40,509 nt of DNA from Frankia torreyi (GTDB lineage Bacteria; Actinomycetota; Actinomycetes; Frankiales; Frankiaceae), in NCBI RefSeq assembly GCF_000948395.1, contig NZ_JYFN01000013.1, positions 1 to 40,509 of the forward strand, written 5' to 3'. Positions 24,458 through 39,055 of the stretch are shown here, piece by piece. A program made the position numbers and the translations under genes. The first letter of the stretch is position 1. The number at the start of each line of letters is the position of its first letter. Below the pieces are notes generated by a model. That model ran no database searches and was not told where the DNA came from. It worked only from the letters and a program-made list of their open reading frames with translations.

Positions 24458-24574
24458 CGGCGGCTGCACCTCCCTCTCGATGTGCGTTCCCGAGTCCCGA
24501 CGAGACCCGCCCGCCGGATGATCCGCCGGGCCCGCCGCGTCCCGGCTGGTGGCCGTGCCCGGGGCTATCCAAAT

Positions 24575-24620
24575 GAAAACGTCTTTTTCGGAGAGTTGTT
24601 CCCGTCGGCCCGGCTGTCAA
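24575..24620 (-). promoter_or_regulatory. Promoter with AT-rich palindrome upstream of DUF2889 gene
   Basis: On the minus strand TTGACA (24620-24615), a 17-base spacer and AACTCT (24597-24592) form a promoter. Immediately downstream the perfect repeat GAAAA-CGTCT-TTTTC (24575-24589) covers the predicted start site. It stands out as AT-rich in very GC-rich DNA and could be the operator of the adjacent TetR protein. Confidence 0.5.
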
Positions 24621-24677
24621 CCGGGTGCCGAACCCGGGACGGAGTCCGTCGCACGGGAGCCGTGGGTGGTGGCGGGC

Positions 24678-25349
24678 TCAGCTCACGCCGGTGGCGGGCC
24701 GACCGGTGGACGCGCCGAGGGCGCGGAAGACGAAGTCGGCGACCCGGTCCGCCGTCTCGGTGGGGCGCTCGACCGGCGGGCACAGGAGCTGGCGGTCCAG
24801 GGCCCGGCCGAGCACCGCCTGGATCTGCTCGGCGTCGGCCCGCGCATCCGCCCAGGGAAAGGAGCCGTCCTCGACGCCCCGGCGCAGGATCGCCGCGAGG
24901 GCCGCCTCCTGGTCGGTCTGGAACCGTTCCCGCTCCGCGGCGAAACCGCGGGCCCGGCGGGTCTCCTCGGAGCTCAGGATCAGCGCGCGGCGCCGGCGGG
25001 GTTCCGCGGACATCAGGTGCAGCACGCCGTCGATCCAGCGGCGCAACGCCTCGCGGGCGGTCGTGGCCGTGGCGATCGACGCGGTCAGCTCGGCGGTGAC
25101 GCGCTCGCAGTCGCGGCGGAACAGCGCCAGCAGCAGGCTGTCCTTGGACGCGAAGTGGCGGTAGAAGGCGCGGGTCGACAGGCCCGCCGCGTGCAGGATG
25201 TCGGTGATCGACACGGAGACCCCGCCGCTCGCGAGCAGGCACCGGTACGCGGCGTCCATGATCAGTTCTCGCTCGTCGTCCTGGTCGTCCGGGACCGCCA
25301 CCGCGCCACCTCCTCGCCGTCGCCCTCGTCGCGTCCAGTCGCGGGTCAT
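24678..25349 (-). CDS. TetR/AcrR-family repressor
   Basis: A 223-residue TetR regulator. The N-terminal DNA-binding domain (about 25-75) has ITDILHAAGLSTRAFYRHFASKDSLLLALF, a classic TetR helix-turn-helix. The C-terminal ligand domain is helical and ends by about residue 215. GGGAGGGG precedes the ATG. It is followed on the same strand by the DUF2889 gene, with a palindrome in between, and most likely controls DUF2889 and perhaps the CoA transferase. Confidence 0.92.
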   Translation of the reverse strand: MTRDWTRRGRRRGGGAVAVPDDQDDERELIMDAAYRCLLASGGVSVSITDILHAAGLSTRAFYRHFASKDSLLLALFRRDCERVTAELTASIATATTAREALRRWIDGVLHLMSAEPRRRRALILSSEETRRARGFAAERERFQTDQEAALAAILRRGVEDGSFPWADARADAEQIQAVLGRALDRQLLCPPVERPTETADRVADFVFRALGASTGRPATGVS

Positions 25350-25487
25350 GCCCCTCCCGGCCCCACCGCCTCCCGGAAGACCTGGACGATCACCCTACCG
25401 ACCGTCGGGCCGCCCGCCCGGGTCCGACCCCACCTCCCGGCCGGGGGCCGTCGCGCGGGTCGGGCGCCCGTTTGCCAGGGTGGACGA

Positions 25488-26423
25488 ATGGACCTGCGCA
25501 TCTTCATCGAGCCCCAACAGGGCGCCTCCTACGAGCAGCAGCTCGCCGTGGCGAGGGCGGCCGAGGACGCCGGCTTCGACGGATTCTTCCGTTCCGACCA
25601 CTACCTGCGGATGGGGCCGGGCGATCCGTCGCCGGGGCCCTCGGACTCCTGGGTGACGCTGGCGGCCCTGGCCCGCGAGACCTCGCGGATCCGGCTGGGC
25701 ACGCTCGTCACCTCGGCGACCTTCCGGTTGCCCGGGCCGCTGGCCATCGCCGTCGCGCAGGTGGACGCGATGAGCGGCGGTCGCGTGGAGCTGGGCCTCG
25801 GCGCCGGCTGGTTCGAGGCGGAACACACCGACTACGGCATCCCGTTCCCCCCGGTCGAGGAGCGGTTCGACCGGCTGACCGAGCAGCTCGCGATCATCAC
25901 CGGGCTGTGGGGAACCCCGCCCGGCGAGACGTTCTCCCACGACGGCCGGTACTACCAGCTCGCCGACAGCCCGGCGTTGCCGAAGCCGGTACAGCGGCCC
26001 CGGCCGCCGATCATCATCGGGGGAGCCGGGCCGCGGCGCACCCCGCAGCTCGCCGCCACCTACGCGGCCGAGTTCAACGCCGCCTTCGCCCCCGCCGAGG
26101 TGGTCGGGCAGCGGTTCGCCCGGGTCCGGGAGGTGGCCGCGGCGGCCGGCCGCGATCCGGCGGACCTCGTCTACTCCACCGCGAACGTCGTCGTCTGCGC
26201 GAAGTCGGACGCGGAACTCGCCCGGCGGGCCGAGCGCATCGGCCGCGAGGTCGACGAGCTGCGCACCAACGGCTTCGCCGGCACCCCCGAGGAGATCCTG
26301 GCCAGGCTCGCGACCTTCGGCCCCGACGGCGCCGGGGCGAGCCGGATCTACCTGCAGGTCCTCGACCTGGCGGACCTCGACCACCTCGACCTGATCGCCG
26401 CCGAGGTGCTCCCGCACGTCTGA
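25488..26423 (+). CDS. LLM-class F420-dependent oxidoreductase (Rv1855c-like)
   Basis: A 311-residue luciferase-like TIM-barrel oxidoreductase. MDLRIFIEPQQGASYEQQLAVARAAEDAGFDGFFRSDHY, RIRLGTLVTSATFRLPGPLAI, DAMSGGRVELGLGAGWFEAEH and EERFDRLTEQLAIITGLW match the F420-dependent Rv1855c subfamily as I know it. It would use reduced F420 (or FMN) as hydride donor; substrate unknown. ATG 25488 is the only start that fits the family N-terminus; AGGGTGGA upstream may serve as ribosome site. It is convergent with the LysR gene and divergent from TetR. Confidence 0.87.
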   Translation: MDLRIFIEPQQGASYEQQLAVARAAEDAGFDGFFRSDHYLRMGPGDPSPGPSDSWVTLAALARETSRIRLGTLVTSATFRLPGPLAIAVAQVDAMSGGRVELGLGAGWFEAEHTDYGIPFPPVEERFDRLTEQLAIITGLWGTPPGETFSHDGRYYQLADSPALPKPVQRPRPPIIIGGAGPRRTPQLAATYAAEFNAAFAPAEVVGQRFARVREVAAAAGRDPADLVYSTANVVVCAKSDAELARRAERIGREVDELRTNGFAGTPEEILARLATFGPDGAGASRIYLQVLDLADLDHLDLIAAEVLPHV

Positions 26424-26469: not shown

Positions 26470-27390
26470 TCAGCCTCTCCTGGCGAGCTGGCGGCTCTCG
26501 ACGGCCGTCTCGGCCGCCGCCGGCTCGGCGAGCAGCCCCCCCAGGGCCGCCGCGACCCGCTCCGAGATGATCGAGGCCAGGCCGTGCCGGGACCAGACGG
26601 CGAGCGGCAGGGACGCGGGCTTCGGCAGGTCGTCGCGGGCGATGAGCCCCTCGGGCGTCTGCCCCAGGGTGGCCATCAGGGCGACTCCGAGACCGGCCCC
26701 CACGGCCGCCTGGACGCCGGCGAGCTGGATCGCCTCAGCGCCGATCACCGCGGGGATCGCATGCGACGACAGGGCCTCCAACGCGCAGGTGCGCAGCGCG
26801 CAGGGATGGTCGAAGGCGACCACGGGCATCGGCTGCGTCGCCGCCGGCCGTCGCCACAGGGGCGAGGAGTACCAGGTCAGCTCCAGGTCGCCGACCGTGG
26901 TCGCGCGGGGATCGGTGGCCGGGCCGAGCAGCAGCGCCAGATCGATCCGCCCCGCCTCGAGCCCCTCGCGAAGGTTGGTGCCGCGGTCGATGCGGAAGCG
27001 GATGCGGTAGCGGGGCAACGACTGCTCCAGCGCCGCGGCGAGGAAGGGCAGCAGTTGCGCCGCGGCATGCTCCGTCGAGCCGATCACGACGGTCTCCTCG
27101 GTCTCCATGCCGAAGCCGTGCAGCGTCTCGTCGTGGATGGCGAGGATCCGGCGGGCCTGGCGGAGCAGGTGCTCGCCGTCGGGGGTCAGTCGGGAGCCGC
27201 GTCCCTGGCGTTCGACGAGCACGCGCCCGGTGGCGGACTCGAGCCGGCGCACGTGCTGGCTCACCGCCGCCTGGCTGAGGTGCAGCGACGTCGCGGCCCG
27301 CTGGAATCCGCCACACTCCGCGACAGCGACGAAGCTGCGCAGCGGGGCGATGTCCAGTATCCGTCGCATGTCGGTCAGGGTACTGGACAT
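26470..27390 (-). CDS. LysR-family transcriptional regulator of the organosulfur-type operon
   Basis: A 306-residue LysR regulator. The winged HTH (about 14-75) has LRSFVAVAECGGFQRAATSLHLSQAAVSQHVRRLE; the effector-binding domain runs from about 95 to 295 (VVIGSTEHAAAQLLPFL, IDLALLLGP, GVQAAVGAGLGVAL). It is transcribed away from the leader peptide and 12-kb operon, 76 bases apart, the usual arrangement for a LysR activator of a divergent operon. ATG 27390 is used; ATG at residue 8 is an alternative. Ligand is unknown; sulfur metabolites such as O-acetylserine or sulfate would fit the context. Confidence 0.9.
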   Translation of the reverse strand: MSSTLTDMRRILDIAPLRSFVAVAECGGFQRAATSLHLSQAAVSQHVRRLESATGRVLVERQGRGSRLTPDGEHLLRQARRILAIHDETLHGFGMETEETVVIGSTEHAAAQLLPFLAAALEQSLPRYRIRFRIDRGTNLREGLEAGRIDLALLLGPATDPRATTVGDLELTWYSSPLWRRPAATQPMPVVAFDHPCALRTCALEALSSHAIPAVIGAEAIQLAGVQAAVGAGLGVALMATLGQTPEGLIARDDLPKPASLPLAVWSRHGLASIISERVAAALGGLLAEPAAAETAVESRQLARRG

Positions 27391-27392
27391 TC

Positions 27393-27420
27393 ATAACCGA
27401 ACGCGATTGATCGCCATAAC
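27393..27420. promoter_or_regulatory. Candidate LysR binding site
   Basis: ATAACCGAA (27393-27401) and ATAACGAAG (27416-27424) are direct repeats 23 bases apart, and GCGAT-TG-ATCGC (27403-27414) is a perfect palindrome between them. Placement between divergent genes and size fit a LysR-type site. Confidence 0.45.
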
Positions 27421-27429
27421 GAAGCGTCG

Positions 27430-27459
27430 TTGGACATCCGGCCGCCGGACCAGCATGCT
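27430..27459 (+). promoter_or_regulatory. Promoter of leader peptide and organosulfur-type operon
   Basis: TTGGAC (27430-27435), an 18-base spacer and CATGCT (27454-27459) precede the leader ATG by seven bases, consistent with a leaderless start. The -35 begins right after the second ATAAC repeat, where a LysR activator would touch polymerase. Confidence 0.4.
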
Positions 27460-27466
27460 CATCCCC

Positions 27467-27547
27467 ATGACCCAGTCGACGGCCGTGATGCTCACGTGTT
27501 GTCGTTGGCTGGATCTTGCCCGTGGCCAGGCAGCACTCTGTCGCTGA
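27467..27547 (+). CDS. Cysteine-rich leader peptide of the LLM/ABC operon
   Basis: A 26-codon ORF, MTQSTAVMLTCCRWLDLARG then QAALCR. The core LTCCRWLDLARGQAALCR aligns with the actinobacterial sulfur leader pattern LTxRRHVDLxRVxSALCR, with Cys codons (TGT TGT ... TGT) at 11, 12 and 25. It lies 216 bases before the first monooxygenase gene, and a hairpin plus T-run sits in between, so ribosome stalling at Cys codons could control readthrough. No Shine-Dalgarno is visible, in keeping with a leaderless start. It is the second such leader in the window, here in front of uncharacterised monooxygenase and transporter genes. Confidence 0.75.
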   Translation: MTQSTAVMLTCCRWLDLARGQAALCR

Positions 27548-27558
27548 CCTGATCGGTC

Positions 27559-27625
27559 GCTGCGCCGCCGCAGCCAAAGCCGTCGCCCGTTCCGGCGACG
27601 CTATGTAGCTATCTCCTTCTTTTTT
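27559..27625 (+). terminator. Attenuator: two hairpins and T-run downstream of leader peptide
   Basis: Stem 1 is GCTGC (27559-27563) with GCAGC (27570-27574). Stem 2 is CGTCGCC (27581-27587) with GGCGACG (27594-27600), seven perfect pairs and a six-base loop. About 20 bases later comes TTCTTTTTT (27617-27625), the longest T-run in the window. The gap between stem and T-run is longer than in a classic terminator, so an unlisted weaker stem (GCTA/TAGC at 27599-27609) or Rho may contribute. Confidence 0.5.
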
Positions 27626-27642
27626 CGCGTACTTCGGCGCGC

Positions 27643-27676
27643 CCCGTAGTCCAGCGCGTCCCGTGGTCCAGCGCGT
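27643..27676 (+). repeat. 17-bp tandem duplication in the operon leader
   Basis: CCCGTAGTCCAGCGCGT (27643-27659) is followed directly by a copy with one A-to-G change (27660-27676). It lies between the attenuator and the first monooxygenase gene. Confidence 0.9.
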
Positions 27677-27763
27677 CATTGTGCCGTGTCCGGAACCGGA
27701 TTCGGTCCGCCGGACGACGCCGTCGTCGTGCGCGCTTCGCCCCCAGACCGGGAAGGTTCCACC

Positions 27764-29185
27764 ATGCCTGTTCGCACGCTCAAACTGGGCGCCGTCCTCA
27801 TCGGCGTCGGCGGTCCGGGGCAGCACAACACGTGGCTGAACCCCGAGATCCCGGGCGACGCCAGCGTGGATGTCCGCTGGTACATCGCCCGCGCCCAGGA
27901 GGCGGAGGCGGCAAGGTTCGATCACGTCTTCATCGTCGACAGCCAGTTCATCACCGCGGACTCGCCGAACCACTACCTCAGCCGGCTCGAGCCGTTGACG
28001 CTACTGTCCGCGATCGCCGTTCACACCCACCACATCGGCCTGGTCGGAACGATCACGACGTCCTACAACGAGCCCTTCAACGTCGCCCGCCGCCTCGCCT
28101 CGCTCGATCACATCAGCGGCGGCCGGGCCGGCTGGAACGTCGTCACCAGTGGCGACTCCGGAACGGCGGGCAACTACAGCCGCGACGAACACTTCGACTA
28201 TCCGACCCGATACGGACGAGCGATCGAACACGTGCGAGTCGCGCAGGGGCTGTGGGATTCCTACGAGGCAGACGCCTTCCCCCGCGACAAAGAGCGGGGA
28301 GTGTTCTTCGATCGTAGCCGTCAGCATGCGCTCAATCACGCCGGCGAATACTTCTCCGTGGTCGGACCACTGAACCTGGAGCGCACTCCCCAGGGTCAGC
28401 CGGTCATCTTCCAGGCGGGCGACTCGGAGGAGGGCCGTGATCTCGGCGCGACTATCGCCGACGCAATCTTCACGCACTCGCAGACGCTCGAGCAGGCGCA
28501 GGCATTCCGGACCGAGCTGCGGGCTCGGGCGGCCGCCAAGGGCCGCGACCCGGAGAACCTGCTCATCGTTCCGGGGATTTCCCCGATCATCGCCGACACC
28601 GATGAGCAGGCCCGCGCCAAGGAGGACGCGATCCTCGGCGAGGGAAGCTTCGACCGGGCCCTGGCCGAGCTCGGCCGGCCCTTCGGCTGGCACGACTTCT
28701 CGCAGTACGACCTGGACGCGCCGTTCCCCGAGGTCGGAGATGTCGCCGAGCGCAGCTTCCGCACCCACGCGGAGGCGATCACGAAGCTGGCGCGGGACAA
28801 CAGCCTGACGCTTCGCCAGGTGGTCGAGCACCAGTTGCGGGCGCGCCGCTCGCCGTTCGTCGGCTCGCCCCTGACCGTCGCGAACGAGATCGAGCGGTGG
28901 TTCACCGCCGGCGGCTTCGACGGCGTCAACATCACCGTGAACGCGCCGAGCGAGTTCGCGCGCTTCACCGACCAGGTCCTGCCGATCCTGCGTGAGCGGG
29001 GCGTCGTGCGCAGCGAATACGAGTCGACCACCCTGCGCGGCAATCTCGGCCTGCCGATTCCGGAGAACAGATACACGGCGGCCCGCCGCCAGGCGCAGTC
29101 CGCCGGCGACGCGCAGTCCGCCGGCGAGGTGGAGGTCGCCGGCGAGGTGGAGGCCGACAGTGCGCCTCCGGCGCTCGTCTCCTGA
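27764..29185 (+). CDS. NtaA/SnaA/DszA-family FMNH2-dependent monooxygenase (first copy)
   Basis: A 473-residue LLM monooxygenase of the nitrilotriacetate/pristinamycin/dibenzothiophene-sulfone group, which cleave C-N or C-S bonds using FMNH2 from a separate reductase. Visible landmarks: GVGGPGQHNTWLNPEIPGDAS (14-34), FIVDSQF (57-63), HYLSRLEPLTLLSA (70-83), SLDHISGGRAGWNVVTS (113-129), GQPVIFQAGDSEEGR and the C-terminal SPFVGSPLTVANEIERWF. GGGAAGG precedes the ATG. Residues after about 450 are repeat-derived (QSAGDAQSAGEVEVAGEVEA). It leads the operon behind the cysteine leader and is clearly paralogous to the gene at 34744. Confidence 0.9.
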   Translation: MPVRTLKLGAVLIGVGGPGQHNTWLNPEIPGDASVDVRWYIARAQEAEAARFDHVFIVDSQFITADSPNHYLSRLEPLTLLSAIAVHTHHIGLVGTITTSYNEPFNVARRLASLDHISGGRAGWNVVTSGDSGTAGNYSRDEHFDYPTRYGRAIEHVRVAQGLWDSYEADAFPRDKERGVFFDRSRQHALNHAGEYFSVVGPLNLERTPQGQPVIFQAGDSEEGRDLGATIADAIFTHSQTLEQAQAFRTELRARAAAKGRDPENLLIVPGISPIIADTDEQARAKEDAILGEGSFDRALAELGRPFGWHDFSQYDLDAPFPEVGDVAERSFRTHAEAITKLARDNSLTLRQVVEHQLRARRSPFVGSPLTVANEIERWFTAGGFDGVNITVNAPSEFARFTDQVLPILRERGVVRSEYESTTLRGNLGLPIPENRYTAARRQAQSAGDAQSAGEVEVAGEVEADSAPPALVS

Positions 29186-29246
29186 GCCGCCGCACATTCC
29201 CGTCGAAATCCGAACACAGCACGAACCCGAACAGAGAAAGAAGACG

Positions 29247-30821
29247 ATGACCTCCGAGCGACACCTGCCATCCGCCCGCCGTACGAGACGCGGCGCCGTC
29301 CTCGGGGCCCTGCTGGCCCTCGCGGCCCTCGTTCTCAGCGCCTGCGGTTCCGGTTCCGGTGCCGGTGCCGCCGCCGCCGCCGGCGGCGGCGGCGGAGGCG
29401 GCAAGACTGCCACCCTGAAGTGGGCCTCCTCCTTCTTCCCGGCGCACTGGGATCCGGTGGTCGGGGGCAGCGGTGCCCAGTTCCGCATCCTCGCTCTGCC
29501 GTATGCCGCGCTGACGAGGACGGACGCGAAGGGCGACGCGGTCCCGGATCTGGCGCAGAGCTGGACCTACAACAGCGCCGGCGACGAGATCACGTTCCAC
29601 CTGCGCCCGAAGCTGACCTTCAGCGACGGCACTCCGGTGAATGCCGCGGCGGTCAAGAACGCCATCGACCGGGCCAAGTCGCAGAAGAACTCGGCGCTGT
29701 TCGGCGACCTCACCTCGATCAAGTCGGTCACCACCAGCGGCGACCTGGACGTGGTCGTCCACCTCACCCAGGTCGATCACCAGATCCCGCTGCTGCTCGG
29801 TGAGCGCGTGCTGCAGATCGCGAGTCCCAAAGCCGCGGCGGATCCGGCGAAGCTCGACCAGAATCCGGTCGGCGCCGGACCGTTCGTCGTCACGCAGTTG
29901 ATTCCGGGCACGAAGGTCCTGCTGAAGAAGAACCCGAACTACTGGGACGCCAAGAACATCCACATCGACAACGTGGAGCTGGTTTCGGCGCCCGACGTGT
30001 CGACGGTCGTCTCCGGCCTGCAGACGGGCGTCTACAACTTCGCCGACCTCGCCCCGAGCCAGGCGAAGGCCGCCAAGGCGGCCGGCCTCGACGTCTTCGT
30101 GCAGCCGGGCTTCAACGCCTCGAACATCAGCCTGAACATCAACAAGGAGCCGTTCAACAACCCCAAGGTCGTCGACGCGGTTCGCTACGCCACCAACCGG
30201 CAGGAGTTCGTCGACAAGCTCACCTTCGGGTACGGCAAGCCGACCAACCAGCCCTTCCCGCCCGGGTACATCGCCTACGACGAGAAGTCGGCGAACCTGT
30301 ACCCCTACGACCCGGCGAAGGCGAAGCAGCTGCTCGAGCAGGCCGGCTTCAAGCCGGGCCAGATCAAGCTGGACCTGGTCATCTCGAAGGAGGACCCGGC
30401 GGCGGAGATCGTGCAGTCGCAGCTCGCGGCGGTTGGGATCACCATCACCATCAAGATCAACAAGAACTGGGCGACGCCCTTCTTCGCCAAGGATCTGACG
30501 CTCTCGCTGTACGGCACGACCGGGCGTGACTCGGCCGCTCAGACGCTCACGGCGCACTTCGGGCCGGACGGCCCGTTGAACCTCAGCTCGCCCTACGAGC
30601 CGGACGGCTTCGAGGCCGCGATCGCCAAGGTCCGCCAGACGCCGCTGGACGCGCCGGACTACCCGCAGATCCTGCAGGCGGCCACCCGCGTGGGCCTGCA
30701 GAGCAAGGCGCTCGTCTTCACCTACTCCAGCCCGAACCTGTTCGTCAAGAACAAGGCGATCTCCGCGCTGCCCGCCAACCCGGCCCACATCGACTGGACC
30801 GGCGTGACCATCGGCAACTGA
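29247..30821 (+). CDS. ABC importer substrate-binding lipoprotein (SBP_bac_5 family)
   Basis: A 524-residue extracytoplasmic solute-binding protein, family 5 (peptide/nickel/opine). It has a twin-Arg-containing signal peptide, hydrophobic core and lipobox LSAC with Cys33, then a Gly/Ala-rich linker (34-53). The mature part has LPYAALTRTDAKGDAVPDLAQSW, ITFHLRPKLTFSDGTPVNA, and VRYATNRQEFV, typical of the family. Its placement with LLM monooxygenases recalls the KPN_01854-type binding protein family, described next to luciferase-like enzymes. It would deliver an organic substrate, not necessarily a peptide. GAGAAAG precedes the ATG. Three 17-bp repeats follow its stop. Confidence 0.92.
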   Translation: MTSERHLPSARRTRRGAVLGALLALAALVLSACGSGSGAGAAAAAGGGGGGGKTATLKWASSFFPAHWDPVVGGSGAQFRILALPYAALTRTDAKGDAVPDLAQSWTYNSAGDEITFHLRPKLTFSDGTPVNAAAVKNAIDRAKSQKNSALFGDLTSIKSVTTSGDLDVVVHLTQVDHQIPLLLGERVLQIASPKAAADPAKLDQNPVGAGPFVVTQLIPGTKVLLKKNPNYWDAKNIHIDNVELVSAPDVSTVVSGLQTGVYNFADLAPSQAKAAKAAGLDVFVQPGFNASNISLNINKEPFNNPKVVDAVRYATNRQEFVDKLTFGYGKPTNQPFPPGYIAYDEKSANLYPYDPAKAKQLLEQAGFKPGQIKLDLVISKEDPAAEIVQSQLAAVGITITIKINKNWATPFFAKDLTLSLYGTTGRDSAAQTLTAHFGPDGPLNLSSPYEPDGFEAAIAKVRQTPLDAPDYPQILQAATRVGLQSKALVFTYSSPNLFVKNKAISALPANPAHIDWTGVTIGN

Positions 30822-30924: not shown

Positions 30925-31959
30925 ATGGCGGTGAGCACGGCTGACCACGCGGCCGTTGCCGACCCGGGCGTCGCGCTCGCCGCCGCCAGGGCGCGGCGGG
31001 CCGCCGGCCGCGTCCTGGTCACCCTCGCCCGCTCGGTCGCGATCTTCGTCCCGGTCTTCCTGGTGGCGACCTTCCTGACCTTCGCCCTGCGGGCGCTCAG
31101 CGGCCTGAGCCCCGCCAGCATCCAGCTCGGGGAGAGCGCCACCCCGGACGCGGTCGCCCGCATCGAGCACCAGTGGGGCCTGGACCGCCCGTTCCTCGCC
31201 CAGTACTGGAGCTGGTTCACCGACATCCTGCACGGCCAGCTCGGCGCGAGCTGGTCCAACGGCACGAACATCGCCGAGCTGATCAGCAACGGCCTGGCCA
31301 TCAGCCTGTCGGTGGTGACGCTGGCACTGATCATCGGCGTGGTCTTCGGCTTCGGGCTCGGCACCCTGGCGGCGGTGCGCCGCACGACCTGGATCGACCG
31401 GGCGATCACGGGCTTCCTGACGGTCTTCTCGGTGATGCCGCCCTTCGTGGTCGGCATCGTCCTGGTGACCGTCTTCGCCGTCGGGCTCGGCTGGCTGCCG
31501 GCCGCGGGCTACGTGCCGGCGAGCGTGGGGACGTGGCCGTGGTTCACCCACATCCTGCTGCCGGCGCTGGCGCTCAGCCTCGACCCGATGGCCGACGTCG
31601 CCCGCCAGTTGCGCTCCGGTCTCATCGCGTCCTATCAGGAGAACTACGTGACCGGCGCGATCGTGCGCGGGCTCAGCCCGCGGCGGATCTTCTTCCGGCA
31701 CGTGCTGCGCAACGGGGTGGGGCCGGCCCTGAGCGTGCTGGGCTGGCGGTTCCCCACGCTCATCGGCGGCTCCGTGGTCACCGAGTGGATCTTCGGGCTG
31801 CAGGGCTTCGGCCGGTTCGCCAACGACTCCGCACAGGCCGGGGACGTACCGGCGGTCCAGGGCGTGCTCGTCGTCTCGATCGTGCTGGTCGTCACCTTCA
31901 ACCTGATCGTCAACATCGTCCTGGGCCGGGTCACCCCGGCCTCGCAGCGGGGGGTGTGA
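30925..31959 (+). CDS. ABC importer permease (DppB/OppB type)
   Basis: A 344-residue inner-membrane permease with six hydrophobic segments (about 35-57, 122-150, 160-188, 203-220, 275-290, 312-335). The cytoplasmic coupling loop (EAA motif) is around 240-265: NYVTGAIVRGLSPRRIFFRH. RIEHQWGLDRPFLAQYWSW is a DppB-family hallmark. GAGAGGAGG precedes the ATG. It is cotranscribed with the second permease, whose ATG begins one base after its stop. Confidence 0.93.
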   Translation: MAVSTADHAAVADPGVALAAARARRAAGRVLVTLARSVAIFVPVFLVATFLTFALRALSGLSPASIQLGESATPDAVARIEHQWGLDRPFLAQYWSWFTDILHGQLGASWSNGTNIAELISNGLAISLSVVTLALIIGVVFGFGLGTLAAVRRTTWIDRAITGFLTVFSVMPPFVVGIVLVTVFAVGLGWLPAAGYVPASVGTWPWFTHILLPALALSLDPMADVARQLRSGLIASYQENYVTGAIVRGLSPRRIFFRHVLRNGVGPALSVLGWRFPTLIGGSVVTEWIFGLQGFGRFANDSAQAGDVPAVQGVLVVSIVLVVTFNLIVNIVLGRVTPASQRGV

Positions 31960-31960
31960 C

Positions 31961-32854
31961 ATGGTCCGTCGCGTCCTGGCGCTGCCGACCGGCCGGCTCG
32001 CCGTCGGCATTCTGTCCCTGATCGTCCTGCTGGCGATCCTCGGCCCGACCCTGGCTCCCCACAACCCGCTGGGGACGAGTGCACTGACCCTGACCGGCCC
32101 CTCCTGGGAGCACTGGCTCGGGACGGACTACCTCGGCCGGGACGTCTTCAGCCGGCTGCTCGCCGGGTCACGCACCAGCGTGCTCGGCTCGGTCGAGGTC
32201 GCGCTGATCGCGCTGACCGTCGGCGTCGTCCCGGGCATCCTGTCGGTGTACTTCGGCCGGGTGTTCGAGTGGCTCACGCTGCGGATCGCCGACACGCTCA
32301 TCGCGCTGCCGTTCCTCATCTACGCCGTGGCCGTCACCGCGCTGCTCGGCAACGGGATTCCGCAGGCGATGTTCACCGTCGGCGTGCTCGTCTCCCCGCT
32401 GTTCTACCGGGTCGCGCGGGCGGCGACGCTGGCGGTCGCCCGCTCGCAGTACGTCGAGGCGGCGCTGATCTCCGGCGCGTCGATCGGCTGGATCGCGCGC
32501 CGGCACGTGTGGGGGAAGGTGCTGCCGCCCGTCGCGGTGGCGCTGGCCCAGACGATCGGCGTCGGCTTCGTCGTCGTCTCCAGCCTGAGTTTCCTCGGCA
32601 TCGGGGTGCAGCCGCCGGCGCCGACCTGGGGTGGCCTGCTCGCCTCCGACCTCGGCTACCTGTCCTACCAGCCGTGGGCCCCGGCTGTCCCCGCCCTGCT
32701 GATCATGGCGACGGTGTGGGGCAGCAACCTGCTGGCCGACGCGATCCGTGACGTGTCCGGGGAGGCGGGCCGCGCGCTGCTGCACAGCCGCCGGGCGCGC
32801 GCCCGCCGCCTCGACCCAGCCGAACCGATTCCCGCCGGAGGCGTCGCCCCATGA
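31961..32854 (+). CDS. ABC importer permease (DppC/OppC type)
   Basis: A 297-residue permease: N-terminal helix (14-32), then the DppC-typical GPSWEHWLGTDYLGRDVFSRLLAG (46-69), three to four central helices, the coupling loop SQYVEAALISGASIGWIARRH, and the late FLGIGVQPPAPTWG motif diagnostic of the family. The last 30 residues are hydrophilic and Arg/Ala-rich. Its stop overlaps the next ATG (ATGA). It forms the membrane channel with the preceding gene. Confidence 0.93.
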   Translation: MVRRVLALPTGRLAVGILSLIVLLAILGPTLAPHNPLGTSALTLTGPSWEHWLGTDYLGRDVFSRLLAGSRTSVLGSVEVALIALTVGVVPGILSVYFGRVFEWLTLRIADTLIALPFLIYAVAVTALLGNGIPQAMFTVGVLVSPLFYRVARAATLAVARSQYVEAALISGASIGWIARRHVWGKVLPPVAVALAQTIGVGFVVVSSLSFLGIGVQPPAPTWGGLLASDLGYLSYQPWAPAVPALLIMATVWGSNLLADAIRDVSGEAGRALLHSRRARARRLDPAEPIPAGGVAP

Positions 32855-33861
32855 CGAGAACCCGTTCCAATGCCACGGTCACCGCCACGGTGCCCGCGGC
32901 GCGTCCGGCGGACCCTCCCGCCGCGCACTCGCCCGCAGTGGACGTGCCTGCCGTGGACCCACCGGCCGTGGGCTCGGGGGATCCGCCGGCCGCCCAGGCC
33001 GCCGTGCTGGCGGTCCGCGACGTGCGGATCCGCGACGACGTCAACGACCGCGAGATCGTGCACGGCGTCTCGTTCGAACTCAGGCCCGGCCGGGCCGTCG
33101 GCATCGTGGGGGAGTCGGGCAGCGGCAAGACGCTGACCTGCCGCGCGATCCTCGGCATCCTGCCGGCGCACTTCGCCGTGGCCGGTGGGTCGATCGAGAT
33201 CGCCGGGCGCGACATCGCCCGGCTGACGACCCCGCAGTGGACGGACCTGCGCGGATCGACGATCAGCGCGGTGTTCCAGGACCCCGCCTCCTACCTCAAC
33301 CCGTCCCTCAAGGTGGGAGTGCAGATCGCGGAGGTCATCCAGGTCAAGTCCGGGCTGCGGCGGCGCGACGCGCGTCGCCGCGCGCTCGAGCTGCTGACCG
33401 CGGTGCACCTGCGCGACCCCGAGCTCGTCTACGACCAGTACACCTACGAGCTGTCCGGCGGGATGCTCCAGCGCGTCCTCATCGCCACCGCGATCGCCGC
33501 CGACCCGCAGGTGCTCATCGCCGACGAGGCGACCACCGCCCTGGACGTGACCGTGCAGGCCGAGATCCTCGACCTGCTCGCCGACCTGCGGGAGCGCCGC
33601 GGCCTCGCGCTCGTCGTCGTGTCCCACGACCTCGCCGTCGTCGCGCAGGTCTGCGACGAGGTGCTGGTGATGCGCGCGGGCGAGGTCGTCGAGCACGGGG
33701 CGACCGCGGACGTGCTCTACCACCCGCGCCACGAGTACACCCGCCTGCTGATCGCCGAACACGAGCAGTACGGCCTGGACCGCTACCTGGCCGACACCGA
33801 CACCGACACCGGCGCCGGCGGCGGCGGCGAGCAGCGGAAGGAGCTGGACGGTGTCCGCTGA
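32851..33861 (+). CDS. ABC importer ATP-binding protein (DppD/OppD type)
   Basis: A 336-residue ATPase. Walker A GESGSGKT (87-94), Q-loop VFQDPASYLNPSLKV (141-155), signature LSGGMLQR (201-208), Walker B VLIADEATTALD (221-232) and H-loop VVVSHDLAVV. The first 50 residues are an unusual Pro/Ala/Asp/Val-rich extension (DVPAVDPPAV repeats) absent from usual members. The C-terminal tail has a DTDTDTG repeat. The ATG lies in the ATGA overlap with the permease. It lacks the full Cys-rich C-terminal region of OppD, so metal binding is unlikely. Confidence 0.93.
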   Translation: MTRTRSNATVTATVPAARPADPPAAHSPAVDVPAVDPPAVGSGDPPAAQAAVLAVRDVRIRDDVNDREIVHGVSFELRPGRAVGIVGESGSGKTLTCRAILGILPAHFAVAGGSIEIAGRDIARLTTPQWTDLRGSTISAVFQDPASYLNPSLKVGVQIAEVIQVKSGLRRRDARRRALELLTAVHLRDPELVYDQYTYELSGGMLQRVLIATAIAADPQVLIADEATTALDVTVQAEILDLLADLRERRGLALVVVSHDLAVVAQVCDEVLVMRAGEVVEHGATADVLYHPRHEYTRLLIAEHEQYGLDRYLADTDTDTGAGGGGEQRKELDGVR

Positions 33862-34684
33862 CGGCCGGCCGGTCCTGGAAGTCGCCGATCTCGAGGTCCA
33901 TTACGGACTGCGGCGGCGCCGGCGTCGGGTGCTGCAGGGTGTCTCGCTGTCGGTGGCCTGCGGCGAGACCGTGGGCGTGATCGGCGAGACCGGCTCGGGC
34001 AAGTCGACCTTCGCCCGTGCGGTGCTCGGCCTGGTGCGGGCCTCCGGCGGCCGGATCCTCATCGACGGCGAGGACGTGTCCCGGTACTCCCCCCGGCAGT
34101 GGCGCGCGCTGCGTCGCCGCGGCGTCGTCCAGTACGTGTTCCAGGATCCGCTGCGCAGCCTCGATCCCGACCTGCCCATCGAGGAGTCCCTCATCGAGCC
34201 GTTGCTCGTCCAGGGCGTGGGCCGCAAGGAGGCGATCGAGCGCGGGCGCGCCTACCTCGCGCGCGTCCGCCTGGACAGCGAGCTGTTCGGCCGCCTGCCC
34301 GGGGAGCTCTCCGGCGGCCAGCGCCAGCGCGTCGCGGTGGCCCGCGCCCTGGTCACCGAGCCCGCGCTGATCATCCTGGACGAGCCGGTGAGCGCCCTGG
34401 ACTCCGCCAACCGGGTCGGAATCCTGGAGATCCTCAAGGAACTACGCGACGCCGGCGTCGCACTGATCTTCATCTCGCACGACCTCGGCTCCGTCGCCGG
34501 CGTCGCCGACCGCGTCGCGGTGCTCTACCAGGGCGAGTTCGTCGAGGTGGGGGACGCCCGCGCGGTCATCAGCGCCCCCCGACACCCCTACGCCCGGCTG
34601 CTCGTCGGTTCGGCGCCGACGCTGCGCTCCGCCGCCGCCAGCCGGGCCGAGCGCGACGCGCTGCGCGCCCTGCTGCACGCCTGA
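33851..34684 (+). CDS. ABC importer ATP-binding protein (DppF/OppF type)
   Basis: A 277-residue ATPase: Walker A GETGSGKST (45-53), Q-loop VFQDPLRSLDP (96-106), signature LSGGQRQR (153-160), Walker B LIILDEPVSALD and H-loop FISHDLGSV. GTG 33851 lies inside the end of the preceding ATPase gene (11-base overlap) with AAGGAG upstream, so the two ATPases are translated together. It completes a five-gene importer. Confidence 0.93.
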   Translation: MSADGRPVLEVADLEVHYGLRRRRRRVLQGVSLSVACGETVGVIGETGSGKSTFARAVLGLVRASGGRILIDGEDVSRYSPRQWRALRRRGVVQYVFQDPLRSLDPDLPIEESLIEPLLVQGVGRKEAIERGRAYLARVRLDSELFGRLPGELSGGQRQRVAVARALVTEPALIILDEPVSALDSANRVGILEILKELRDAGVALIFISHDLGSVAGVADRVAVLYQGEFVEVGDARAVISAPRHPYARLLVGSAPTLRSAAASRAERDALRALLHA

Positions 34685-34743: not shown

Positions 34744-36090
34744 ATGGCCCGCACGCTCCATCTCGCCCTGAGCGCCTACGGCGTCGGCGGCCCCGGCCAG
34801 CACGGCCTGTGGAAGGACCCGCGCGTCCCGAACAACGCCAGCGTCGACATCAACTACTACATCCGCCAGGCGCAGACCGCCGAGCAGGCGCTGTTCGACG
34901 CGTACTTCATCGTCGACAGCCAGTTCATCAACGCCGGCTACCCGGCGCACTACCTCAGCCGGCTCGAACCGCTGACGCTGCTGTCGGCGGTCGCGACCCA
35001 CACCCGCCACATCGGCCTGATCGGTACGGCGAGTTCGACGTACAACTCGCCGTTCAACCTCGCCCGCCGGTTCGCCTCGCTGGATCACATCAGCGGCGGG
35101 CGCGCCGGCTGGAACGTCGTGACCAGCTTCGACACCGGCACCTCGCGTAACTACGGGCTCGACGAGCACCTCGACTACGGCACCCGCTACGGCCGGGCGC
35201 TCGAGGCGGTCGAGGTCGTGCGCGGGTTGTGGGACTCCTACGAGCCCGATGCCTTCCCCGCTGACGTCGAACGCAACCTCTTCCTCGACCCGACGAAGCT
35301 GCACGCCCTCGATCACGTCGGCGAGCACTTCAAGGTCGCCGGGCCGCTCAACCTCGACCGGTCGCCGCAGGGTCAGCCGGTCATCTTCCAGGCGGGCGTC
35401 TCCGAGGAGGGCCGCACCCTGGCCGCCCACGTCGCGGAGGGCATCTACGCCCCCGGGGGGTCGCTGGCGGAATCGCAGGACTACTACGCCGACATCAAGC
35501 GGCGGGCCGCGGCGCTCGGGCGCGATCCCGACCACGTCGTCATCCTCGTCGGCGCCAGCCCCGTCGTCGCCGCCACCGACGCCGACGCGCACCGGCTCTC
35601 GCGCGACATCTTCGAGGCCGACAACGACTTCGACCGCAAGCTCGGCTTCCTCGGCCGCAGCTTCGGTGCCTACGACTTCAGCGGGCACGACCTCGACGCG
35701 CCGTTCCCCGACCTCGCGCACCTGGCCGAGAAGGGCGGGCGCACCCGCGGCCTGGAGATCGTCCGGCAGGCCCGCGACGAGGGGCTCACCCTGCGGCAGG
35801 TCGTCGAGACGGTCACCGAGTACGCGCCGTCGCCGTTCACCGGCGCGCCGGACACCGTCGTCGACGCGATCGAGCAGTGGTTCACCACCGGCGCGGCCGA
35901 CGGGCTGAACCTCCGCTTCCGCACCCACGACGACCTCGAGCGCTTCGTCGCCGACGTCGTCCCGTCGCTGCAGAAGCGCGGCCTGTTCCGCACCGAGTAC
36001 ACCGGCGACACGCTGCGGGACAACCTCGGCCTGCCGATCCCGGTCAACCGCTACGCGCGCGAGCGCGAGACCGCGGCCGCACAGGCCTGA
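34744..36090 (+). CDS. NtaA/SnaA/DszA-family FMNH2-dependent monooxygenase (second copy)
   Basis: A 448-residue paralogue of the 27764 gene: GVGGPGQHGLWKDPRVPNNASVD in the same N-terminal place, FIVDSQFINAGYPAHYLSRLEPLTLLSA (55-82), SLDHISGGRAGWNVVTS (112-128), GQPVIFQAGVSEEGR and an identical style of C-terminus NLGLPIPVNRYA. It lacks the repetitive tail of the first copy. Family members use reduced FMN and oxygen to cleave C-N or C-S bonds. AAGGGAA precedes the ATG. The presence of two paralogues suggests two successive oxidations or a broadened substrate range. Confidence 0.9.
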   Translation: MARTLHLALSAYGVGGPGQHGLWKDPRVPNNASVDINYYIRQAQTAEQALFDAYFIVDSQFINAGYPAHYLSRLEPLTLLSAVATHTRHIGLIGTASSTYNSPFNLARRFASLDHISGGRAGWNVVTSFDTGTSRNYGLDEHLDYGTRYGRALEAVEVVRGLWDSYEPDAFPADVERNLFLDPTKLHALDHVGEHFKVAGPLNLDRSPQGQPVIFQAGVSEEGRTLAAHVAEGIYAPGGSLAESQDYYADIKRRAAALGRDPDHVVILVGASPVVAATDADAHRLSRDIFEADNDFDRKLGFLGRSFGAYDFSGHDLDAPFPDLAHLAEKGGRTRGLEIVRQARDEGLTLRQVVETVTEYAPSPFTGAPDTVVDAIEQWFTTGAADGLNLRFRTHDDLERFVADVVPSLQKRGLFRTEYTGDTLRDNLGLPIPVNRYARERETAAAQA

Positions 36091-36101
36091 GGAGGACCAC
36101 C

Positions 36102-37940
36102 ATGACGGAGTATTCGGCGGACCAGGCTCCCGCGGGCCTGGCCGACTCGGACCTGGCCTACTCGGCCACGGGTGGGCGCGACGTCCACACCGTGCACTTC
36201 CCCACCGCCACGCCGCCGACCGAGGTCGACGTGCTGATCGTCGGCGCCGGCCCGGTGGGCCTGTCGGCGGCCGTGGAGCTCACCGCCCGGGGGGTGCGGG
36301 TCGCCGTCGTCGACCGCGCCCGCACCGCGACGCTGGTCCGGGCCGGCGCGATGGGCCACAGCCCGCGCACGGTGGAGCACTTCCGCCGCTGGGGGCTGCT
36401 GCAACGGATCCGCGACGAGTGGACCTTCCCGCCGGAGTGGAACCAGGGCATCCGGCTGGTCACCTCGCTCGTCGGTCACGAGCTCCTCGCCCCCCGCCGC
36501 CCGTCCTTCGCGGGTTCGGCCGGCGGTGGCCACTCGGCCGCGGAGGCGCTGCGCCGTCCGCAGAGCGCGCTGCAGCGGGTCTTCCTCGACCACCTCGACC
36601 GGCGCGGCGTCGGGGTGGCCGGCGGCTGGCGGCTGGTGGCGCTGCGGGAGAGCGTCGACCGGATCGAGGCCGACGTGCTCCCCGAGGATGGTGAGTCCGG
36701 CGCGCGGCGCACCATCCGGGCGCGCTACCTGCTCGGCGCGGACGGTGGCAGCAGCACCGTCCGCCGGCTCGCCGGCATCGAACGCGACGGCGCCCACGCC
36801 ACCGAGAAGCGGCTGCGGCTCATCGTGCGCACGCAGGACATCTCCGACCGGGTCGGCCCGGCGCCCAGCGGTACCAACATCGTGTTCAACCAGCGGGCCG
36901 CCGGCTTCCTCGCCGCGGTGAGCACCCGCGAGTGGCGCGTGTACGCCGGGCCGTACCCGCTCGACCACACCCCCACCGAGGCGGAACTGCTCGACTCCGC
37001 CCGGGCCGCCTTCGGGTTCGATCTCGACCTGGAACTGGTCTCGTCGACGACCTTCTACGACGCCACCCGGATCGCGCGGACGTTCCGCCGCGGGCGGGTG
37101 CTGCTGGCCGGCGACGCCGCGCACGTGCGCACCCCCGGCGGCAACCTCGGCGAGGGCTTCGGCGATGTGGTCAACCTCGGCTGGAAGCTCGCCGCCGTGC
37201 TCGCCGGTCAGGCCCCCGAGGAGCTGCTGGACTCCTACGACCAGGAGCGCCGCCGGCACAACTGGCGGATCGCCGAGCACGCGCTGGAGCGTTCGCGGCA
37301 CTCGCACGCACTGCTGGCGGAACTGCGCCGGCTCGGCATCCCCGACGACGCCGACGACAGCCCGCAGGCCGAGGCGCGCCGCGCCGAGATCCGCGCCCGG
37401 ATCAGCCAGGGCGCTCTCGGCGCGCCCGGCGTGACCTTCGACGAGCGCTACGACGCGTCGTCGGCGATCTGGTACGAGGACGGCCAGCTCGACGCCGAAC
37501 CACCGTGGCGTGCGGACGTCTACCAGGACGACCCGCGGCCGGGACACCGCGCACCGGACGGCTTCGTCGACCCCTACGGCGGCACCCTCTACGACCGCAT
37601 CGGCAACGGCTTCGCGCTGCTCGTGCTGTCCGCGGACCGGGAGGTGGAACGGGCCCTCGTCGCCGAGGCGCTCGTCCGATCGCTGCCGTTCACGGTCGTC
37701 CACCTCACCGACCCGGCGGTGCGCGCGCTGTACGGCGCCGACAACGTGCTGGTCCGCCCCGACCAGCACGTGGCCTGGCGCGGCGCCGAGCTTCCCACCG
37801 CCGGCGCCGGCGCCGTCCTCGACCTCGTCCTCGGTGCCGGCCAGGTGATCGGTGCCGGCCAGGTGATCGGCGTCGAGCAGGTCGTCGGCGTCGAGCAGGT
37901 CGCCGTCCCTGCCGGCGCGACCGCATCCGCTCGATCCTGA
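36102..37940 (+). CDS. FAD-dependent class A aromatic monooxygenase (PheA/TfdB family)
   Basis: A 612-residue flavoprotein hydroxylase. The FAD-binding Rossmann motif VLIVGAGPVGLSAAVELTARG is at 44-64, the DG motif is in LLGADGGSSTVRRLAG, and the GD motif in VLLAGDAAHVRTPGGNLGEGFGDVVNLGWKLA. The C-terminal region resembles the thioredoxin-like domain of phenol hydroxylases. Such enzymes hydroxylate phenolic or other aromatic rings with NAD(P)H and oxygen. AGGAGGACC precedes the ATG, 11 bases after the monooxygenase stop. The last 40 residues are repeat-derived (GAGQVI, GVEQVV). It hints that the imported substrate or product is aromatic. Confidence 0.9.
   Translation: MTEYSADQAPAGLADSDLAYSATGGRDVHTVHFPTATPPTEVDVLIVGAGPVGLSAAVELTARGVRVAVVDRARTATLVRAGAMGHSPRTVEHFRRWGLLQRIRDEWTFPPEWNQGIRLVTSLVGHELLAPRRPSFAGSAGGGHSAAEALRRPQSALQRVFLDHLDRRGVGVAGGWRLVALRESVDRIEADVLPEDGESGARRTIRARYLLGADGGSSTVRRLAGIERDGAHATEKRLRLIVRTQDISDRVGPAPSGTNIVFNQRAAGFLAAVSTREWRVYAGPYPLDHTPTEAELLDSARAAFGFDLDLELVSSTTFYDATRIARTFRRGRVLLAGDAAHVRTPGGNLGEGFGDVVNLGWKLAAVLAGQAPEELLDSYDQERRRHNWRIAEHALERSRHSHALLAELRRLGIPDDADDSPQAEARRAEIRARISQGALGAPGVTFDERYDASSAIWYEDGQLDAEPPWRADVYQDDPRPGHRAPDGFVDPYGGTLYDRIGNGFALLVLSADREVERALVAEALVRSLPFTVVHLTDPAVRALYGADNVLVRPDQHVAWRGAELPTAGAGAVLDLVLGAGQVIGAGQVIGVEQVVGVEQVAVPAGATASARS
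37833..37904 (+). repeat. 18-bp tandem repeats (2+2 copies) at the 3' end of the FAD monooxygenase gene
   Basis: GGTGCCGGCCAGGTGATC is repeated exactly at 37833-37850 and 37851-37868, and GGCGTCGAGCAGGTCGTC follows at 37869-37886 and 37887-37904 (one change). They encode GAGQVI twice, then GVEQVV and GVEQVA. Confidence 0.95.
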
Positions 37941-37951
37941 AAGGCGTCGGT

Positions 37952-39055
37952 ATGACCGCTGAGTCCGCCACTGCCGAGTCCGCCACTGCCGAGTCCGCCA
38001 CCGGCGGATCCGCTTCGCCGCGCTTCCGGCTCGGCTTCCTCACCCACGTCCAGGGTCCGGGCGACCTGGCAGCCACCTACGACCACGCGCAGGAGCTGTT
38101 CGTCGCCGCCGACGAACTCGGCTTCGACGTCGGCTGGGTGGCCCAGCACCACGTCTCCCTGGGCGGCGGTGGGCTGCCCTCACCCTGGACGTTCCTGGCC
38201 TACGCCGCCGCGCGCACCCGGCGCATCCGGCTCGCCACCGCGATCACGATCCTGCCGCTGGAGGACCCGGTCCGGTTGGCCGAGGACGTGTCGGTCGTCG
38301 ACACGCTCAGCGGCGGCCGGGTCGAGATCGGCGTCGGCAGCGGTGGCAGCGAGCTGGAGTACGCCGCCTTCGGCCGGGACGTGGGTCGCCGGCGCGAGCT
38401 GACCAGCGAGGGGCTGGCGGTGCTGCGCAAGGCGCTTGCGAACGAGGAGGTCGGCGCGCCCGGCTTCACCATCCAGCCACCCGCTCGGGACTTCACCGAC
38501 CGGATCTGGCAGGGCGTCTTCAGCGGTCCGGGTGCCGAGTACGCCGCGGCCTCGGGTTCGAACCTGCTGCTCAACCGCGCCGCCTACGGCTACGACGAGC
38601 CCACCGACACCGTGCAGCGGCCCTGGGCCGACGCTTACCTCGCCGCGTGGAACCGGCCGCGCCCGCCGCGCATCGGACTGTCGCGGTTCATCTTTCCCGC
38701 GGCCGACCGGCGGACCGCACTGGCCCAGATCGGGCCGCACGTGCTCGCGGCCGCACGACGGTTCTCCGAGCACGACGCCTTCCCGAACGGACACAGCGCC
38801 TTCCCGAAGGGAATCGACACCGACGAGGCGCTGCGCCGGTTCCACTCCTTCTACGGCCATCCGGAGGAGATCGTCGCGCAGCTGCGGCAGGAGCGGGTCC
38901 TGCCGGTCGCCACGGATCTGATCGCCCAGTTCAACCCGGCGGTCCTCGACCACGATGTGGCGATCCGGGCGCTCGAACTCATCGCCACCGAGGTCGCACC
39001 CGCCCTGGGCTGGAAACCCGCCTCCCCTGCCGCGCCCGCACTGGCCGGAGCCTGA
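37952..39055 (+). CDS. Luciferase-like FMN-dependent monooxygenase (KPN_01858-like)
   Basis: A 367-residue LLM protein. After an N-terminal repeat (TAESA three times, about residues 2-17) come FRLGFLTHVQGPGDLAATYDHAQELF, GWVAQHHVSLGGGGLPSPWTFLA (61-83), RIRLATAITILPLEDPVRLAEDVSVVDTLSGGRVEIGVGSGG (91-132). The LPLE(D/N)PxRxAEexaxxDxLSGGR core is typical of bacterial luciferase-like LLMs; among families I know it best fits the FMN-dependent KPN_01858 group, found beside family 5 binding proteins. The ATG follows the FAD monooxygenase stop by 11 bases. It closes the operon. Confidence 0.87.
   Translation: MTAESATAESATAESATGGSASPRFRLGFLTHVQGPGDLAATYDHAQELFVAADELGFDVGWVAQHHVSLGGGGLPSPWTFLAYAAARTRRIRLATAITILPLEDPVRLAEDVSVVDTLSGGRVEIGVGSGGSELEYAAFGRDVGRRRELTSEGLAVLRKALANEEVGAPGFTIQPPARDFTDRIWQGVFSGPGAEYAAASGSNLLLNRAAYGYDEPTDTVQRPWADAYLAAWNRPRPPRIGLSRFIFPAADRRTALAQIGPHVLAAARRFSEHDAFPNGHSAFPKGIDTDEALRRFHSFYGHPEEIVAQLRQERVLPVATDLIAQFNPAVLDHDVAIRALELIATEVAPALGWKPASPAAPALAGA
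37961..38005 (+). repeat. 15-bp tandem repeat at the 5' end of the luciferase-like gene
   Basis: GAGTCCGCCACTGCC is repeated at 37961-37975 and 37976-37990 with a diverged third copy at 37991-38005. Encodes ESATA, ESATA, ESATG. Confidence 0.95.

Follow-up and report, generated by a model that had tools for sequence, protein, structure and literature searches.

A putative organosulfur-scavenging operon of Frankia torreyi is preceded by a short, conserved leader ORF, and in this leader and every relative that we read, one Cys codon near the stop codon is TGT. We think it likely that a promoter beside a divergent LysR-type regulator gene drives a leaderless transcript of this ORF, and that ribosomes, stalled at the leader's end for want of Cys-tRNA, switch the operon on. 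With this, the cysteine-leader regulon would reach Frankia and take in an organosulfur-scavenging operon that is conserved in many actinomycetes, and the operon gains a predicted trigger. The invariant UGU also makes it possible to ask, by changing a single base, how a leader that relies on one Cys codon could sense cysteine. The leader lies in a 40,509-nucleotide stretch of contig NZ_JYFN01000013.1, and we refer to the whole of the stretch that was analyzed as the window.

The leader ORF (hereafter, the focal leader; MTQSTAVMLTCCRWLDLARGQAALCR) runs from the ATG at position 27,467 to the TGA at 27,547 on the + strand. It lies between a divergent gene for a LysR-type regulator (26,470-27,390, - strand; Pfam HTH_1 and LysR_substrate) and a monooxygenase gene (27,764-29,185, + strand). 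When we re-read the sequence, the 26 codons, the Cys-Cys pair, and the C-terminal LCR were exactly as stated in the preliminary description. Comparisons with related genomes indicate that the leader is conserved rather than a match by chance. In a protein search, it was present in 11 of the 12 other genomes of the genus that we examined, and also in sister genera (E = 2.3e-5 or better); the single genus member without the leader has a genome of 5.4 Mb, and the source genome is 7.62 Mb. One relative's leader peptide is identical to the focal one. Among 13 leader sequences, the changes are mostly synonymous (pN/pS = 0.35), and nine residues (M1, V7, L9, T10, R13, W14, L15, D16, and R19) are invariant in 15 leader peptides from the Frankiaceae. 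The leader's reading frame is open far upstream in the window, but stop codons close it in many relatives, so the short ORF, with its ATG and its peptide, is the conserved unit.

More widely, we considered 80 named loci with an orthologous monooxygenase gene (the orthologs include those of Frankia sp. QA3, F. tisae, and F. gtarii), and 42 of these have a recognizable leader. The genera with the leader include Frankia, Parafrankia, Protofrankia, Nocardioides, Amycolatopsis, Actinokineospora, Asanoa, Hamadaea, Phytohabitans, Catenuloplanes, Kineosporia, Pseudonocardia, and others. We did not find a recognizable leader at the monooxygenase-gene homologs of Paractinoplanes, Rhodococcus, Gordonia, or Microbacterium, or at loci that lack the LysR gene (in Rhodococcus, Gordonia, Microbacterium, Pseudomonas, and Sphingomonas). 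Because several homologs have the monooxygenase gene without a recognizable leader, the operon can do without it. At five loci from Paractinoplanes or Actinoplanes, the monooxygenase gene and the divergent LysR gene are both present and the gap between them is too short for a leader. The leader appears to be absent or lost there, which makes these loci a natural control.

The focal leader has three Cys codons. The tandem TGT TGT (C11 and C12; 27,497-27,502) is variable among homologs, which have Cys, Arg, or Ser there. The third, the TGT of Cys25 (27,539-27,541), lies nine residues past Asp16, a position that we call D+9, and is the proposed sensor codon. Where the orthologous leaders have Cys at D+9, it is encoded by TGT in 42 of 42 cases. 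The same holds for 30 of 30 leaders sampled from the class and for 59 of 59 further leaders (47 parsed and 12 read by eye, one of these 12 with Glu in place of Asp). Adding the other leaders of F. torreyi itself, the D+9 Cys is TGT and never TGC in all of the ~149 leaders that we read, although the samples include orthologs, so there are fewer independent events than these counts. The paralogous leaders within this one genome agree as well (18 of 18). One aligned ORF has Ser in place of the D+9 Cys. Leaders with runs of Cys codons (LTKRRAVDLCRVAGCCCCCC) also have TGT at D+9.

This is not the usual preference for Cys codons in these genomes. The remaining Cys codons of the leaders from the class and from F. 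torreyi are mostly TGC (95 TGC to 28 TGT), as are those of long genes at the same loci (122 to 27) and those of the window's genes (40 to 4). Nor is it due to general T-richness, because no other codon of the leader has T as its third base in more than 25% of cases. At the core Leu, Asp, and Arg, the amino acid is kept and the codons vary freely, while D+9 stays TGT, which implies selection on the peptide at the core and on the codon at D+9. The homologous leaders carry 1-5 Cys, and the focal leader has at most two adjacent Cys codons. Overall, the invariant TGT suggests an unexpectedly codon-specific sensor. In the literature that we searched (the full text of Canestrari 2020 excepted), we found no mention of a fixed UGU in these leaders. 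A uORF motif that precedes cysS in Rhodobacterales (PMC8632094) is different: it has mainly UGC, and it has a terminator.

Two Kineosporia leaders (from K. rhizophila and K. mesophila) are just 13 codons long and lie ~100 nt upstream of the monooxygenase gene. Their RWLD core is gone, and both retain the -10 element, the ATG, and the terminal TGT CGC TGA. Unless those leaders are decaying, they show that a leader can lose its peptide core.

Upstream of the leader, the sequence alignment shows a conserved promoter layout, with a -35-like TTGGAC (27,430-27,435, + strand), a -10-like CATGCT (27,454-27,459, + strand), 7 nt, and then the ATG. The 7-nt spacing from the -10 element to the ATG is fixed in 33 loci. 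TGGAC occurs at -36 or -37 from the leader's ATG in 28 of the 33, and a script matched a second TGGAC in 4 others. When the loci are aligned on the ATG, A at -12, C at -9, T at -8, and C at -1 are invariant in all 33. Because a conserved promoter stands at a fixed distance from the ATG, the mRNA probably starts at or beside that ATG, which would make the leader leaderless. We also considered the in-frame ATG at 27,455, which is probably not the start codon: it overlaps the probable, invariant -10 hexamer, the two codons just before the ATG at 27,467 vary freely among relatives, and several other genera have lost the upstream ATG but keep the one at 27,467.

A palindrome, AACGAAGCGTCGTT (AACGA-AGCG-TCGTT; 27,418-27,431, + strand), overlaps the -35 element. 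This block is conserved in the Frankiaceae and partly conserved elsewhere, and it is a candidate binding site for the divergent LysR protein. An orthologous divergent LysR gene is present at all 42 of the homologous loci that have the leader, and at most of these, the gene for a substrate-binding protein (SBP) comes next after the monooxygenase gene. This conservation of the LysR gene and the putative operator would fit with an operon that is controlled by LysR only, and with an ORF that is non-regulatory or encodes a small trans-acting protein; so would the conservation of core residues besides the Cys codons. We consider this very unlikely, since the same peptide pattern is found before ~18 other genes, which are mostly related to sulfur, and since a trans-acting protein offers no easy reason why one Cys codon should be conserved at the codon level.

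Those other leaders form a genome-wide set. The preliminary description had proposed a regulon from two loci in the window, which turns out to be an understatement: there are ~19 such leaders in the genome, mostly ahead of sulfur genes, so the idea of a regulon holds. The genes just downstream of them include those for a nitrite/sulfite reductase, a DUF4395 protein along with a sulfurtransferase (rhodanese), an SsuD-type alkanesulfonate monooxygenase, two MsnO8-type LLM oxidoreductases, a DszC/SfnB-like oxidoreductase, an enzyme related to NtaA and DmoA, and three SBP_bac_5 proteins. A few neighbors are unexplained or might be there by chance (a ROK protein, a response-regulator-type protein, an SDR, and an amidohydrolase). 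The window's first leader (MRGDPTLVCRLHVDFARVASALCCAPHCPVSR; 2,534-2,632, - strand) lies upstream of the gene for the SsuD-like alkanesulfonate monooxygenase and has its D+9 TGT at 2,564-2,566. When scanned as a peptide, it scores 27.3 bits against the NCBIfam model NF042934, whose curated cut-off is 27 bits.

A search with the NF042934 profile finds ~17 leader-like ORFs in the genome, and one further leader resembles the focal leader. The focal leader itself is not on the NF042934 list, and its peptide has no match to the model at E ≤ 10. Because the model does not find it, we do not file the focal leader under NF042934. Against a profile of the genome's other leaders, the focal leader scores 13.3 bits, while the maximum from 1000 shuffles is 7.6 bits, and hhalign relates it to them with E = 2.7e-5 and a probability of 74%. 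Leaders of an intermediate type (RRAVDLGRTSTATC) are found on the orthologous operon in Pseudonocardia, and there are bridging leaders in other genera too. Given the significant similarity and the location upstream of genes for sulfur metabolism, we place the focal leader in the actinomycete Cys leader class in the broad sense. Some other W-variant leaders score no better than the best shuffle, so their link to the class rests on the orthology of their position. Sampled genomes from the phylum's other classes gave no match to NF042934 at E = 1e-4.

The leader class is already known (Seliverstov 2005; Canestrari 2020; NCBIfam NF042934 and NF042936), and within it, the focal leader is a divergent W-variant. 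NF042934 as it stands does not detect this leader and misses a whole subfamily. The focal leader aligns without gaps to NF042934 (putative leader peptide, cis_reg_atten) over L-x-x-x-R-x-[VIL]-D-L-x-R-x-x-x-A-x-C, with the D+9 Cys encoded by TGT, but it has Trp, instead of His or Ala, before the hydrophobic residue and the Asp. Seliverstov et al. 2005 (PMC1262725) described candidate leaders with runs of Cys codons, and without terminators, before the cys operons of Mycobacterium and Propionibacterium, and suggested Rho as one possibility. The focal leader resembles those candidates in having Cys codons near the stop codon and no terminator hairpin; it differs in the genes downstream, and runs of Cys codons are described there, not one fixed codon.

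The polycysteine leaders of Mycobacterium smegmatis respond to cysteine (Canestrari 2020, as cited in PMC9031893 and PMC13236596). Like these leaderless sORFs (NF042936, Ms4527A), the focal leader is a uORF, probably of the leaderless type, with Cys codons near the stop, such leaders lie upstream of sulfur genes, there are several per genome, and an intrinsic terminator is not needed. The focal leader differs from them in that it lacks a run of consecutive Cys codons (it has 2 + 1 Cys) and has the RWLD core, and its operon encodes YtnJ-like monooxygenases and an Opp-type transporter, with a LysR partner. The focal peptide does not match NF042936.

The operon's first gene encodes a YtnJ-like flavin monooxygenase of the NtaA/DmoA family (TIGR03860, 1.2e-146; YtnJ/MoxC, 8e-126). 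It is followed on the + strand by a gene for an SBP_bac_5 substrate-binding protein (28,992-30,821 as called; Pfam, 1.9e-74), whose true start is probably farther downstream because the ORF as called overlaps the monooxygenase gene. Next are Opp/Dpp-type permeases and ATPases (30,925-31,959, 31,961-32,854, 32,851-33,861, and 33,851-34,684, all on the + strand) and a second YtnJ-like monooxygenase of the NtaA/DmoA family (34,744-36,090, + strand). For both monooxygenases, the nearest solved structures are YtnJ/MoxC of Bacillus, with DszA and DmoA lower in the list. CmoJ is the YtnJ-type enzyme. Since an Opp/Dpp-type transporter is encoded between two YtnJ-like enzymes, the operon most likely takes up an organosulfur compound and releases its sulfur. 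The preliminary description had argued that the leader gives the operon a probable sulfur role that its protein families alone would not suggest. The role itself is supported, as most of the identifiable genes downstream of the leaders are sulfur genes, but the remark about the protein families is only half right, because the likeness to YtnJ/MoxC already points to the chemistry of C-S bonds. Further luciferase-like monooxygenase domains, an FAD_binding_3 monooxygenase, and a UDP-glycosyltransferase-like gene flank the operon (24,549-26,420, 35,877-37,940, 36,932-39,052, and 39,099-40,460, the last on the - strand). The sulfur cluster may extend beyond the operon.

We propose that transcription from the promoter beside the LysR gene, which is probably activated by LysR, would give an mRNA that is probably leaderless, with the ATG at 27,467 as its first codon. 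If Cys-tRNA is scarce, ribosomes would pause at the Cys codons, and above all at the UGU of Cys25, which is one sense codon before the stop; the stalled ribosome would have this UGU in its A site, at the leader's end. The conserved L-T-x-x-R-W-L-D-x-x-R peptide would then be in the exit tunnel, where it probably helps the pause. Held at the leader's end, the ribosome would turn on the monooxygenase and transporter genes, so that a cell short of cysteine would scavenge organic sulfur. We infer the leaderless start, the stalling, and the cysteine response from sequences, and the cysteine response of the focal leader is predicted from its class, by analogy with the M. smegmatis leaders. A more specific version, which we hold tentatively, is that these leaders are codon-specific arrest peptides and not simple counters of Cys codons. 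The core (L...R-x-[VIL]-D-L-x-R), sitting in the tunnel, might slow only UGU at D+9, so that UGC will not do, and the slower or wobble reading of UGU by tRNA-Cys, or else a UGU feature at the level of the RNA, might set the sensitivity to cysteine shortage. The leader peptide of the E. coli tna operon, TnaC, is also short, has a conserved W and D at a fixed distance from its stall site, exerts its control near the stop codon, and acts through Rho. The signal for TnaC is free tryptophan, sensed at the stop codon, and in the focal leader, the sensor would be a Cys codon; this is an analogy only, and we do not claim homology.

How might a stalled ribosome switch the operon on? The preliminary description pictured a classical transcription attenuator, in which alternative stems form and transcription ends at an intrinsic terminator, placed at the window's longest T-run. 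No other T-run on the + strand of the window is as long as this one (TTTTTT, 27,620-27,625; A-runs reach at most 5 nt), and it does lie in the untranslated spacer between the leader and the first gene (27,548-27,763, + strand). However, the run is not conserved (at this position, close relatives have TTTT or no run), and a terminator scan of 26,900-28,000 found no stem that ends at it. The only terminator-like site in that region falls inside the leader, with 0.4 sites expected from shuffled sequences. Across 41 homologous spacers, including the window's, we found no terminator hairpin, and the one pattern match was inside a leader ORF. From the leader to the gene, the predicted RNA fold is no better than that of shuffled sequences (z = -0.63), and Rfam gave no match above the gathering score near the leader. 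The actinobacterial cys leaders of Seliverstov 2005 (PMC1262725) are also without terminators. From the comparison of the 41 spacers, we reject the intrinsic terminator, which we consider very unlikely.

Another possibility for this output step, and one that we take seriously without expecting it, is translational attenuation as in M. smegmatis. If the leader is finished, the RNA would mask the ribosome-binding site of the downstream gene, and a stalled ribosome would break this pairing. Unmasking has the best experimental precedent (Canestrari 2020, as described in PMC9031893 and PMC13236596), and a GGAAGG-type site before the first gene is conserved in Frankia. Against it, the 41 spacers range from 41 to 370 nt, we saw no conserved complementary element in them, and in folding simulations of ribosome stalling, the accessibility of the Shine-Dalgarno site was not above that for shuffled spacers (P = 0.83 and 0.76).

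We slightly favor, as a plausible output, that the stalled ribosome would shield the C-rich spacer from Rho, as in tna. All 41 spacers have more C than G, and their mean C-over-G skew is 0.22, compared to 0.14 in the following gene (P = 6e-9; the comparison is to the following gene and not to other intergenic DNA). This skew suits Rho.
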